Shown here: in pieces, positions 1,822 through 9,699 of the stretch | How the letters are laid out: each line of letters begins with the position of its first letter | Position numbering within the stretch: the first letter of the stretch is position 1 | Assembly (NCBI RefSeq): GCF_002305875.1 | Contig: NZ_CP022098.1 | Location: 12,090,001-12,154,000, forward strand | Source: Cystobacter fuscus | GTDB lineage: Bacteria; Myxococcota; Myxococcia; Myxococcales; Myxococcaceae | Length of the DNA stretch: 64,000 bases | Direction: 5' to 3' | The notes under the pieces: generated by a model | Seen by the model: the letters and a program-made list of their open reading frames with translations, nothing else | What the model was told of the DNA's origin: nothing | The model's database searches: none | Made by a program: the position numbers and the translations under genes

Positions 1822-2706
1822 ATGTCGCCTTCCCCCACCCCGGTCATCGGCATCATCGGAGGCAGTGGCCTCTACCAGATCGACGGCCTGGAGAACGTCG
1901 TCTGGCGTGAGGTGAGCACGCCCTTTGGCGCGCCCTCGGACGCGCTGTGCTTCGGCACCCTCGAGGGCACGCCCGTGGTGTTCCTGCCGCGCCATGGCCG
2001 GGGGCACCGCATCGCCCCGTCGGAGATCAACTTCCGCGCCAACATCGACGCGCTCAAGCGCTCGGGGGTGACGGACGTGCTGTCGGTGTCCGCGGTGGGC
2101 AGCCTGCGCGAGGACCTGCCCCCGGGCACCTTCGTGGTGGTGGACCAGTTCATCGACCGCACCTTCGCGCGCACCAAGAGCTTCTTCGGCACCGGGTGCG
2201 TGGCGCACGTGTCCATGGCCCGGCCGGTGTGCTCGCGCCTGGGGGACGCGGTGATGGGCGGCTGCGAGACGCTCGGCATCCCCGCGCGGCGCGGCGGCAC
2301 CTACCTGGTGATGGAGGGGCCCCAGTTCTCCTCGCACGCCGAGAGCGAGCTGTACCGCTCCTGGGGCTGCAGCGTGATCGGCATGACGAACATGCCCGAG
2401 GCCAAGCTCGCCCGGGAGGCGGAGCTCTGCTACGCGAGCGTGGCCATGGTCACCGACTTCGACTGCTGGCACCCGGGCCATGACGCCGTCACCGTGGACC
2501 AGGTCGTCGCGGTGATGACGGCCAACTCGGGCAAGGCGCGCGCGCTGGTGAAGAACACCGTGCCCCGGCTCGGCAAACACTCCGTGCCGTGCGTCCACGG
2601 CTGCCAGCGGGCGCTCGACCACGCCATCATGACCGCCCCCGACGCGCGCGACCCCGCCGTCCTCGCCCGGCTCGACGCCGTGGCCGGCCGGGTGCTCCGC
2701 CGCTGA
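1822..2706 (+). CDS. mtnP: S-methyl-5'-thioadenosine phosphorylase (MtnP, 294 aa)
   Basis: Cleaves methylthioadenosine, a by-product of polyamine and homoserine-lactone synthesis, with phosphate to adenine and 5-methylthioribose-1-phosphate. The N-terminal phosphate loop IGIIGGSGLY, the PRHGRGH segment, the EGPQFSSHAES substrate block and TDFDCW (the Asp residues that select adenine over guanine in MTAPs) are all present. Length matches the family. TNMPEA replaces the usual TxxPE segment and is conservative. The start at ATG 1822 fits the family N-terminus. The next genes, after one unrelated secreted-protein gene, are mtnA and a class II aldolase, so the three together define an MTA-disposal route. 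Confidence 0.95.
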   Translation: MSPSPTPVIGIIGGSGLYQIDGLENVVWREVSTPFGAPSDALCFGTLEGTPVVFLPRHGRGHRIAPSEINFRANIDALKRSGVTDVLSVSAVGSLREDLPPGTFVVVDQFIDRTFARTKSFFGTGCVAHVSMARPVCSRLGDAVMGGCETLGIPARRGGTYLVMEGPQFSSHAESELYRSWGCSVIGMTNMPEAKLAREAELCYASVAMVTDFDCWHPGHDAVTVDQVVAVMTANSGKARALVKNTVPRLGKHSVPCVHGCQRALDHAIMTAPDARDPAVLARLDAVAGRVLRR

Positions 2707-4256: not shown

Positions 4257-5368
<1,112 letters not shown>

Positions 5369-5372
<4 letters not shown>

Positions 5373-6742: not shown

Positions 6743-6829
6743 CGAAAACCGCACGCTCCGGGTGTCCGTTCCTTGTCAGACCCCCCCTGTATTCTTCCTC
6801 TCATGCACGACGCATCAGGGAGGCCGATC

Positions 6830-7513
6830 ATGAACGGACGCACGGAGTCACCCCACGTCTCGGAGAACAAGCTGGGGCGCTACCTCACGGCGGCACCCGC
6901 GCTGCGCAAGCAGCTCATCCACACCCAGAAGCATCCCCCGGATCCGCGTTACCTGCGCTACCCCGACGCCGCCCACGCCATCACCGACTTCCTCTGCCAT
7001 GGCCAGGACGAGTCCATCCTGCGCCGCCACCAGCACCGGCTCGCCACCACCGTCTTCGAGTCCGAGTACGACGCGCACCGCGCCCAGTCGTGCATCGAGG
7101 CCATCGAGCACTACCGCCGGCTGCACCCGTCCCTGGGGCTCGGCGGCCTCATCGCCACCACCGTGGGCGACGCGCCGCCCCCGCTCGAGGTGGCCGGCGT
7201 GAGCATCCAGGTGCGGCCCCAGGTCGTGCTCCAGGCGGTGGACGCGCACGGCGACAACCAGGTCGGCCTGCTCAAGCTCTACTTCTCCAAGCACCACCCG
7301 CTGGACGAGCGCTCCGGGCAGTACATCGCCACGCTGCTGAGCGCCTTCGCCGAGCAGCACCTCGCGCCGCTCGGACCGCTGGATTCCCGGCGGATGCTCG
7401 TGGTGGACGTGTTCGCCGGCCGGGCCTACTCGGCCCCCCGCGCCCGCACGCGCCGCCTGTGCGACGTGCGCCACGCCTGCGAGGAGATCGCCGCTCGCTG
7501 GGCCGTACACTAA
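6830..7513 (+). CDS. Hypothetical cytoplasmic protein (227 aa)
   Basis: Not recognised. It has no signal or membrane segment. The first half is helical (ENKLGRYLTAAPALRKQL, a His-rich stretch around RRHQHR), and the second half alternates strands and helices (VSIQVRPQVVLQA, VGLLKLYFSK, RMLVVDVFAGRAY). The latter, with short strands and a central acidic VVDVF, vaguely recalls nuclease-like folds, but I cannot point to catalytic residues. The start at ATG 6830 has an AGGGAGG Shine-Dalgarno; in-frame upstream starts at 6773 and 6803 lack one. The gene stands 87 bp after the lipoprotein gene on the same strand. Confidence 0.6.
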   Translation: MNGRTESPHVSENKLGRYLTAAPALRKQLIHTQKHPPDPRYLRYPDAAHAITDFLCHGQDESILRRHQHRLATTVFESEYDAHRAQSCIEAIEHYRRLHPSLGLGGLIATTVGDAPPPLEVAGVSIQVRPQVVLQAVDAHGDNQVGLLKLYFSKHHPLDERSGQYIATLLSAFAEQHLAPLGPLDSRRMLVVDVFAGRAYSAPRARTRRLCDVRHACEEIAARWAVH

Positions 7514-7627: not shown

Positions 7628-8590
7628 TTGGTGGACGCATTGTGGGAACGACGGGCCTTGCTCGTCTCGGGCAAGGGCGGCGTGGGCAAGACGACCGTCG
7701 CGGCGGCGCTCGCGCGCGCGGCGGTGAGTGCCGGCAAGCGGGTGCTGCTCGCCGAGGTCGAGCTGGGCTCGGAGAACGCGGACAGCCCCTCGCCCCTGGC
7801 GGAGCTCGTGGGCGCGCGCCCCTCTGGCGCCCAGGTCGTCTCCGTGTCCGAGCGCCTGTCCTTCGTGCGCCTGTCGGCCATCGAGGGCCAGCGCCTCTTC
7901 CTCCAGGACATCCTCCCCCTGAGGGTCATGGCGGACGCGGCCATGCGCATGCGCGCCCTGCGCCGCTTCCTGGAGGCCGCCCCCGCCCTGCGGGAGATGG
8001 GCGTGCTCTACCAGATGCTCCACCTGCTGCGGCTCACGCGGCCGGATGGCCAGGCGAAGCACCCCCTGTGCATCCTGGATCTGCCGGCCACGGGCCACGC
8101 GCTCGCGCTCGCGGCACTGCCCGACACGCTCCTGTCCGTCATGCCCGGCGGCCCCATCGGGCGCTCGGTGCGCGAGGGGCTCACGCTCTTGAGGGATCCC
8201 GCCCTCACCGGCACGGTGCTCGTCACCCTGCCCGAGCCCCTGCCCGTGAGCGAGACGCTGGAGCTGGCCACCGCCATCGGCAGCCACGGCATTCCGCTCG
8301 CCGCGGGGGTGCTCAACCGCATGCCGGACAATCCCTTCTCGCCGGACGGGCGGGACGCGGTGAAGCGGCTGCTCGAAGCGCACGGGCCGCACCGGGGCCA
8401 GCGCGCGCTGGGCCGCCTGGACAGGGCTCGCGCGGCGCAGAGCCGGCTGGAGACGAACTTCCCCGCGCAGCTGCTCACCCTGCCGGAGCAGGCCGCCACG
8501 GACAGGCGCCTGGTGGAGCAGCTCGCCGCGCACCTCACCCGAGTGCCCTCGACCCCCGCCTCGCGCGAGAGCGCCGGAGCCCAGCCATGA
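7628..8590 (+). CDS. Get3/ArsA-like ATPase, first of a tandem pair (320 aa)
   Basis: Deviant-Walker P-loop ATPase of the SIMIBI class. The N-terminus has SGKGGVGKTT, including the signature lysine (first K) that reaches across the dimer, and LCILDLPATGHAL as the switch II / Walker B region; LAEVEL is the switch-like strand. It lacks the usual DxDP in that strand (EVELGS instead), so nucleotide hydrolysis may be altered. It overlaps the next ATPase gene by four bases (ATGA), suggesting a heterodimer. Related tandem Get3-like pairs occur in actinobacteria (for example Rv3679-Rv3680). The first codon is TTG 7628 or GTG 7631, both after AGAGGGG. Confidence 0.85.
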   Translation: MVDALWERRALLVSGKGGVGKTTVAAALARAAVSAGKRVLLAEVELGSENADSPSPLAELVGARPSGAQVVSVSERLSFVRLSAIEGQRLFLQDILPLRVMADAAMRMRALRRFLEAAPALREMGVLYQMLHLLRLTRPDGQAKHPLCILDLPATGHALALAALPDTLLSVMPGGPIGRSVREGLTLLRDPALTGTVLVTLPEPLPVSETLELATAIGSHGIPLAAGVLNRMPDNPFSPDGRDAVKRLLEAHGPHRGQRALGRLDRARAAQSRLETNFPAQLLTLPEQAATDRRLVEQLAAHLTRVPSTPASRESAGAQP

Positions 8591-9699
8591 GCCTGCAATC
8601 CCTGCTGCGTGACAAGCGCGTCCTCGTGCTGTGTGGCGCGGGCGGCGTGGGCAAGACGACGACGGCGGCGGCGCTGGGCGTGGCGGCGGCGCGCTCGGGC
8701 CGCAAGGTGCTGGTGCTCACCATCGACCCCGCGCGGAGGCTCGCCGAGGCCATGGGCCTGAAGGAGGGCGGCGCCGAGCCCACCACCATTCCCCCCGAGC
8801 GGCTGTTTGCCGGGGGCACGCCGGGGACGGGCCGGCTGGACGTGTGGATGTTGGATCCGCGCGTCGTCTTCGAGCGCTTCGTGCACCGGTTGTCGCCCAC
8901 GCCCGAGGCGGCGCGCACCATCCTCGACAACCGGCTCTACCGCTTCCTGTCGGACCTGGTGGCGGGCATGCAGGAGTACGCCGCGGCCGAGGCGTTGGAT
9001 CACTTCCTCGACGAGGGGAAGTACGATCTGGTGGTGCTGGACACGCCCCCGAGCCGCCACGCGCTGGACTTCCTGGAGGCACCGGGGCGGCTGGCGCGCT
9101 TCCTGGATGATCGCATCGTGTCGCTCTTCCTGCCCGAGGAGAAGGGACGCGGGGGGCGGCTGTGGCGCAAGACGTCGCAGCTGCTCGGCAACGTGCTGGG
9201 GAGCATCTTCGGCGAGGGCTTCACCCAGGAGATGCGCGCCTTCCTCGGAGCCTTCAGCGGACTGTTCGCCGGCATCCGGCTGCGCGCGGACCGGCTGCGC
9301 GAGCGGCTGTCGGCGAAGGACGCGGCCTTCCTGCTGGTGACGTCGCCGGAGCAGGCGTCGCTGGACGAGGCGTCCTTCTTCCGGGACATGCTGCACGAGA
9401 AGGGCCTGCCCTTCGCGGGCTACGTGCTCAACCGGAGCTGGGCGCGCGAGGACGGACTCCTGCCGCCCGAGGGGCTGTTGCGGCACGTGGAGGACGACAC
9501 CGCGCGCGGCGGGGTGGAGGCGCTCATCCGCCTGGCCGAGCAGGAGCGAGCCCGGGCCGAGGTGCACCGGGGACTGTTGCAGCGGCTGGCGGAGAAGCTG
9601 CCCGCGGGCGCGGTGGCGGTGGCCGCCCCCGAGTCCGGAGGCGAGCTGGAGGACTTCGGGGGCCTGGTGCGTCTGGGCGACGCGCTCGCCATGGGCTAG
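8587..9699 (+). CDS. Get3/ArsA-like ATPase, second of a tandem pair (370 aa)
   Basis: Partner of the preceding gene. The P-loop reads CGAGGVGKTT: the canonical signature lysine of Get3/ArsA (GKGG) is replaced by Ala, while the Walker lysine and TT remain. The switch I strand is LTIDPARRLAEAMG with the canonical DPA, and switch II is VVLDTPPSRHALDFL. A central helical insertion (about residues 175-240) could form the client- or membrane-binding groove of Get3 proteins. The two subunits are therefore complementary: one has the signature lysine, the other the DPA. Role unknown; possibilities are tail-anchored protein handling or envelope maintenance. The stop is shared with the convergent NTF2-like gene through a CTAG. 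Confidence 0.88.
   Translation: MSLQSLLRDKRVLVLCGAGGVGKTTTAAALGVAAARSGRKVLVLTIDPARRLAEAMGLKEGGAEPTTIPPERLFAGGTPGTGRLDVWMLDPRVVFERFVHRLSPTPEAARTILDNRLYRFLSDLVAGMQEYAAAEALDHFLDEGKYDLVVLDTPPSRHALDFLEAPGRLARFLDDRIVSLFLPEEKGRGGRLWRKTSQLLGNVLGSIFGEGFTQEMRAFLGAFSGLFAGIRLRADRLRERLSAKDAAFLLVTSPEQASLDEASFFRDMLHEKGLPFAGYVLNRSWAREDGLLPPEGLLRHVEDDTARGGVEALIRLAEQERARAEVHRGLLQRLAEKLPAGAVAVAAPESGGELEDFGGLVRLGDALAMG

Follow-up and report, generated by a model that had tools for sequence, protein, structure and literature searches.

The window that was analysed here is a stretch of 64,000 nucleotides of the Cystobacter fuscus genome. It contains two adjacent genes on the same strand that encode ATPases of the ArsA/Get3 fold, and they are called A and B in the order in which they follow one another. 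The coordinates of both genes and of their key residues are compiled in Table 1. Both proteins passed the cut-off of the Pfam family ArsA_ATPase, and they were found to be distant relatives of one another (27% over 176 residues). The P-loop of A reads GKGGVGKT, and at the place of switch I the stretch LLAEVELGS is found, which is devoid of a DPA motif. The P-loop of B reads CGAGGVGKTTT, and its switch I reads TIDPARRL. Each protein has a single cysteine, at position 148 in A and at position 16 in B. An earlier, sequence-only reading of this DNA had claimed that the first protein has the signature lysine (GKGGVGK) and no DPA, that the second has a DPA and an alanine at the signature position, and that the two genes overlap by four bases. 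The two motif claims could be read directly from the sequence, and the overlap was verified as the ATGA that is shared by the stop codon of A and the start codon of B.

Table 1. Positions of the BagAB-like gene pair and of its key residues in the window.
Feature	Position	Strand	Basis or remark
Gene A, BagA-like ATPase, 320 aa	7628..8590	+	TTG start (GTG at 7631 also possible); Pfam ArsA_ATPase; closest solved structure 6bs3_A, Rv3679
Gene B, BagB-like ATPase, 370 aa	8587..9699	+	ATG start; Pfam ArsA_ATPase; closest solved structure 6bs3_B, Rv3680
ATGA, shared by the start codon of B and the stop codon (TGA) of A	8587..8590	+	Sequence
A Lys16, signature lysine, putatively reaching into the nucleotide site of B	7673..7675	+	K in 248/248 A counted
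A Lys21, Walker A lysine acting in cis, intact here	7688..7690	+	Lost in 20/248 A relatives
A Glu45, corresponding to the switch-I Asp of B	7760..7762	+	Same distance from the P-loop
A Asp151, switch II (D-L-P-ATGH)	8078..8080	+	Invariant in 94/94 Myxococcota A
B Ala18, signature-lysine position	8638..8640	+	K in 0/269 B; 80 of these from a scan pattern restricted to S, A or P
B Lys23, Walker A lysine	8653..8655	+	K in 269/269 B
B Asp47-Pro48-Ala49, switch I	8725..8733 (Asp47 8725-8727)	+	DP in 269/269 B
B Asp152, switch II (DTPPS)	9040..9042	+	Invariant in 101/101 Myxococcota B

The sequences of both proteins were compared with all solved structures. The best match of A was Rv3679 (4.6e-16, chain A of 6BS3) and the best match of B was Rv3680 (1.2e-61, chain B of 6BS3), and the title of this entry reads "ADP-bound bacterial Get3-like A and B in Mycobacterium tuberculosis". 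Models of the single chains were predicted with pLDDT values of 88.5 (A) and 85.1 (B). The model of A matched the fold of 6bs3_A with a Z score of 28.7 (rmsd 3.4, 298 aligned, 24% identity), and the model of B matched that of 6bs3_B with a Z score of 34.1 (rmsd 4.5, 343 aligned, 37% identity). The next fold match was the archaeal TRC40 3zq6 (Z score of 26.8 for A and 25.9 for B), and the Get3 structure 2WOJ was among the top fold matches as well; a second look based on Foldseek lists only the families that it found. The likeness to actinobacterial Get3-like pairs, which had been proposed in the earlier reading, was therefore confirmed by the two chains of one mycobacterial structure. In NCBIfam, the BagA and BagB models were the top matches of A and B, respectively. 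The scores against these equivalogs (the pair NF053622/NF053621) were 73.4 bits for A and 272.7 bits for B, while the curated cut-offs are 400 and 521, and the BagB cut-off was exceeded in none of 40 genomes of the order. Because the scores are below the cut-offs, the window pair is named BagAB-like and not BagA/BagB. Rv3679/Rv3680 already show the asymmetric motifs, thus the kind as such is known from M. tuberculosis, and the window pair is its myxobacterial representative.

The genome is present as a single contig of 12.35 Mb (C1), and it encodes a second adjacent A-B pair at C1:10095433-10097429. In the following, the window pair is called type I and the second pair is called type II. The window pair is thus one of two in this genome, and it is a paralogue of the type II pair, the B protein of which is 87% identical to a B protein of Archangium violaceum. 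In 65 genomes of the family to which the window belongs, strong matches to the type I proteins A (<1e-60) and B (<1e-90) occurred in the same 47 genomes and neither of them occurred in the other 18, whereby this tally was counted by eye from two tables, with a clear gap between the strong and the other matches.

The Pfam ArsA_ATPase matches and the label "Anion transporter", which the depositors had given to Rv3680, would also fit to an arsenite pump ATPase (ArsA) that is split over two genes and energises the export of anions. This explanation is extremely improbable, because the two proteins scored 41.5 and 50.0 bits against the arsenical pump ATPase model TIGR04291, which has a cut-off of 650, because one cysteine per chain means that there is no metalloid-binding cysteine cluster, and because a separate fused ArsA-like protein is encoded in the genome. 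An ArsA pump and likewise a symmetric Get3 homodimer were rejected on the basis of cut-offs, motifs, and cysteines. The fused ArsA-like protein (L001:412-2427, at about 4.850-4.852 Mb of C1) consists of two domains with a GKGGVGK in the N-terminal and a GQGGVGK in the C-terminal half, and it is possibly another asymmetric pair in one chain. A further single Get3-like protein (L002:1231-2370, at about 7.438 Mb of C1, minus strand) carries a C-terminal ArsA_HSP20 (alpha-crystallin) domain, like Get3d; its P-loop reads GGGGAGKT, and it has neither a signature lysine nor a DPA.

The pairing of the two genes was analysed in Myxococcota and beyond. A match to B (E up to 1e-20) was found in 136 of 146 Myxococcota genomes, and a match to A (E up to 1e-6) was also found in 136 of 146. 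In addition to the window, 100 Myxococcota regions were analysed, which had been chosen and are not a random sample, and B was present in all 101 loci. It was linked to A in 94 of them, invariably on the same strand (94/94). Of these linked pairs, 80 had a spacing of -32 to +29 bases (27 of them at -4), nine had one of 30-900 bases, and five had one of more than 900 bases, whereby the starts of B are approximate. Seven B genes had no linked A: two of them are located at contig ends (L119, L140), one has about 2 kb of upstream sequence with a dehydrogenase-like open reading frame within it (L096), and four have ample upstream sequence (L101, L102, L110, and L122, i.e., 4 of the 101 loci). In one genome (G095) a lone A is about 290 kb away from a lone B, and A-like genes located elsewhere were found in G133, G134, and G095. 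A scan of named genomes yielded more loci, and of the best 80 of these 70 had a linked A, always on the same strand (70/70); according to the records, many of the organisms are Actinomycetota, and one Desulfobacteraceae and one Acidobacteria assembly are among the others. With profile searches that did not make use of a pattern, B was found in 60 of 149 genomes of the phylum of locus L196, in 11 of 99 of that of L182, and in 12 of 99 of that of L215. These searches gave 94 loci, three of which were already among the best 80. A was linked in 87 of them, on the same strand throughout, three had no A (L262, L306, and L321, with short flanks), and four were A-B fusions (L292, L304, L305, and L332). 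In the fusions, which were drawn from the sets of three phyla, a single open frame of 596-769 codons encodes A-like domains followed by B-like ones, and L305 does not contain the start of the A half. The conservation of the gene pairing, on which the earlier reading had made itself dependent, was thus verified with linked A genes in 94 of 101 Myxococcota loci, 70 of the best 80 named-genome loci, and 87 of 94 further loci, plus the four fusions.

The joint history of A and B was characterized with phylogenetic trees. A joint tree of 43 pairs and three outgroup rows from this genome, which was a quick tree without bootstrap, placed all A proteins in one clade (support of 96) and all B proteins in another (support of 99). 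The tree included the Mycobacteroides chelonae pair (L230), but not Rv3679/Rv3680 themselves, and the A and B of L230 fell into the respective clades. Separate trees of A and B from 90 pairs had 54 of 87 splits in common, compared to a mean of 0.2 and a maximum of 3 after shuffling. From the 41 well-supported splits of the A tree, 37 were present in the B tree, and all 41 were compatible with the well-supported splits of B; the patristic distances of A and B were correlated with a coefficient of 0.84. The trees indicate that A and B probably parted once, long ago, and would since then have been inherited and duplicated as a unit.

A different explanation would be that A and B each also form homodimers or act with other partners, that the operon is a convenience, and that the motif differences reflect two separate jobs. 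It would account for the B genes without a linked A and for the A-like genes elsewhere in G095, G133, and G134. Furthermore, homodimers of A would carry the signature lysine in trans, and such a homodimer may be weakly active. Nevertheless, this explanation is very unlikely in light of the congruent trees of A and B, the occurrence of the type I A and B either together or not at all across the family of the window, the natural A-B fusions, and the solved A and B of M. tuberculosis in one entry; in addition, B alone would be without any signature lysine.

A catalytic site that is shared between the chains predicts that the signature lysine of A is fixed and its Walker lysine is dispensable, and the reverse for B. 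These predictions were compared with the pooled relatives. In A, the signature position was occupied by K in all 248 proteins, and the position of the Walker lysine by K in 228, R in 18, and S in two. In B, the signature position was occupied by S in 152, A in 93, P in 19, T in four, and E in one of 269 proteins and never by K, while the Walker lysine and the DP of switch I were both present in 269 of 269. For 80 of the 269 B proteins, i.e., those from the named-genome scan, the search patterns excluded a K at the signature place and fixed the Walker lysine or the DP. The pattern-free count of B is 189. The A proteins of Myxococcota had been anchored on a pattern in which the Walker position is limited to K or R, and all 94 fitted to it. 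As both proteins pass the ArsA_ATPase cut-off and the signature asymmetry is found in every relative counted, the observation is not due to chance. With regard to switch I, the absence of a DPA from A was nearly universal, and the motif was found close to the switch-I place in only one of 248 proteins (L118). The switch-I position was Asp in 41 of 248 A proteins, mostly from other phyla and without the PA that would follow. Hence, the motif asymmetry holds in the relatives for the signature lysine and nearly always for the DPA, but the lack of the switch-I Asp in A is not universal.

Several sequences are not included in the pooled counts. These are a second A fragment (L254), extra Get3-like open reading frames (L295 and L298), another fragment (L342), a cut A (L282), the B proteins without a readable P-loop (L321 and L306), both halves of the fusion L305, which has no P-loop in the A half, three loci that are identical to others (L274, L289, and L296, the same as L196, L182, and L215, respectively), and two lone A proteins (L345 and L346). 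The count at the switch-I offset also leaves out the A of L181, which is cut, and the A of L224, which has no P-loop in frame.

The losses of the Walker lysine of A were mapped on a tree of 123 A proteins, which remained of the 248 after the removal of near copies. At least nine changes were required, and the well-supported branches likewise force a minimum of nine, one of the changes being to Ser; an earlier tree of 90 A proteins without the extra phyla had needed four. Nine changes at the Walker lysine versus none at the signature lysine have a chance of about 0.002 (one-sided), assuming that both positions are equally mutable. The two A proteins with Ser (L329 and L331) have the P-loop GKGGVGSS, and both genomes show three B matches each.

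The single-gene relative NosGet3d has an Arg at the place of the Walker lysine and a Glu at that of the switch-I Asp and still hydrolyses ATP, while its Vmax is possibly lower owing to these substitutions (PMC10248533). Therefore, an Arg or a Glu in A is no proof of a dead site, and, in combination with the Asp at the switch-I place of 41 of the 248 A proteins, it follows that the pocket of A may still accommodate a nucleotide. According to another reading, ATP would be hydrolysed in both pockets, slowly in that of A, and the asymmetry would tune the rate or the order of turnover instead of silencing a site. The activity of NosGet3d would be in accordance with such a two-site enzyme, and so would the retention in A of the switch-II Asp (94 of 94 Myxococcota proteins), of the P-loop Ser/Thr, and of the Walker lysine in most relatives. 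However, none of the 269 B proteins offers a signature lysine to the A pocket, and the Walker lysine of A was repeatedly replaced, once by Ser, so that two working sites seem rather unlikely.

The preferred interpretation, which we regard as likely, is that A pairs with B in a heterodimer that has a single composite catalytic site, situated in the pocket of B and completed by Lys16 of A. In cytoplasmic Get3, the signature lysine crosses the dimer and stabilises the charge that is built up in hydrolysis, and the role of the switch-I Asp is to align the water (PMC10248533). In the proposed mechanism, A and B, both of the Get3/ArsA fold, would pair 1:1. The pocket of B would bind the ATP for hydrolysis, which would be held by Lys23, Thr24, and the switch-II Asp152, the attacking water would be positioned by the switch-I Asp47 of B, and the catalytic signature lysine would be supplied across the interface by A. 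The pocket of A receives no lysine in trans, as B has Ala18 at this position, and has a Glu in place of the switch-I Asp, and therefore it would at most bind nucleotide without hydrolysing it. The pocket of B is complete as soon as Lys16 of A is added and the pocket of A is not, so that one productive ATP per heterodimer would be expected. This distribution suggests that only one of the two ATP sites does work, and the terms "obligate" and "one catalytic site", which had been chosen in the sequence-only reading, may apply to this pair, although some B genes have no linked A and the single-gene NosGet3d with similar substitutions is active. At this site, the binding and hydrolysis of ATP would drive the opening and closure of the dimer and thereby the binding or release of a client, as in Get3. 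The genes, their motifs and the conservation of these, the co-inheritance of A and B, and the fold match of each chain are direct results, and the A:B dimer in C. fuscus, the arrangement of its shared site, and a cycle like that of a chaperone are predictions. The chances are about even for a wider proposal, namely that BagAB-like pairs, which according to the records are spread over four or more phyla, work as true half-site ATPases while their A protein turns into a catalytic helper instead of an enzyme, and that the window pair is a specialised second copy with a client set that differs from that of type II.

The neighbourhoods of the type I and type II pairs were examined for a client, and no client was indicated. 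Directly upstream of A lies a gene for a protein of 246 aa (window positions 6773-7510), which had no match in Pfam (E up to 0.01) and none in NCBIfam (E up to 1e-5). Relatives of this upstream gene and of a SnoaL-like gene downstream of the pair flank 19 of the 60 type I loci, including the window. By eye, methionine-salvage-like genes were recognised at window positions 1822-2706 and 4257-5372 (MTA phosphorylase-like and MtnA-like). In three type I loci (L093:9177-10028, L098:7103-7951, and L099:9131-10036) a short-chain dehydrogenase gene on the opposite strand lies between A and B, which are separated by about 0.9 kb. Pfam was run on the protein of L098 only, and those of L093 and L099 were assigned by similarity; dehydrogenase matches were also present in L094 and L096, and in L092 A and B are likewise split by a gap. 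Of the 41 type II loci, the two query loci included, 26 have a phasin-like gene that lies upstream of the pair in divergent orientation, and 27 have a TPR gene downstream of B at a distance of up to 3.8 kb (e.g., L148:9070-10371, L141:6251-7474). The TPR gene was considered as a co-chaperone of a Get pathway and was set aside, as its product has a lipoprotein-like start (a signal peptide followed by a Cys, read by eye) and is therefore probably located outside the cytosol.

With respect to the cellular role, mycobacterial reports, including M. smegmatis, describe a link to survival in streptomycin (PMC10597346, PMC12216072), and the phenotype of M. tuberculosis is described in a citing paper (PMC10597346). 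In the literature searched, no link of the myxobacterial genes to a role was found, and no paper on an anion-transporting ATPase of Myxococcus xanthus was found. The repeated loss of the Walker lysine of A, the A-B fusions, and the joint duplication were not met in the literature searched, and they may be partly in print. The results extend a two-gene Get3-like ATPase, for which all solved structures found are from M. tuberculosis, to myxobacteria and other phyla. They represent a natural mutagenesis experiment, in which the Walker lysine of A itself was lost repeatedly and the lysine in trans remained untouched; this makes the one-site model directly testable and names the residues to be mutated. 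For structural work, the natural A-B fusions provide both halves in a single chain.

Among the known systems, BagA/BagB (Rv3679/Rv3680, PDB 6BS3-6BS5) are also unlike ATPases of the Get3 fold, and Rv3679 has a GKGGTGKS and no DPA, while Rv3680 has a GAGGVGKTTT and an IDPA. The window pair differs from them in missing the equivalog cut-offs and in being one of two pairs in its genome. Get3 is encoded by a single gene and forms a symmetric homodimer, each chain of which carries both the lysine and the DPA and, as a rule, a zinc-binding CXXC. Get3/TRC40 share the fold (3ZQ6 and 2WOJ) and the deviant Walker A type of the P-loop with the window pair, which, in contrast, splits the signature lysine and the switch-I DPA over two genes and has no CXXC in A or B; anywhere in the relatives, a CXXC was found in two of 248 A and two of 269 B proteins. 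ArsA is one chain with arsenite-binding cysteines. It resembles the window pair in that two unlike ATPase halves work together, whereas the latter consists of two genes with one cysteine each, and natural A-B fusions occur elsewhere. Finally, Get3d/NosAFP has the Get3 fold and, in some members, degenerate catalytic residues, and it is described as conserved in photosynthetic bacteria and land plants (PMC10248533). In contrast to the window pair, it is encoded by a single gene and has a C-terminal ArsA_HSP20 domain, which is absent from the matches listed for A and B but is present in the single Get3-like protein of the same genome, which looks myxobacterial.
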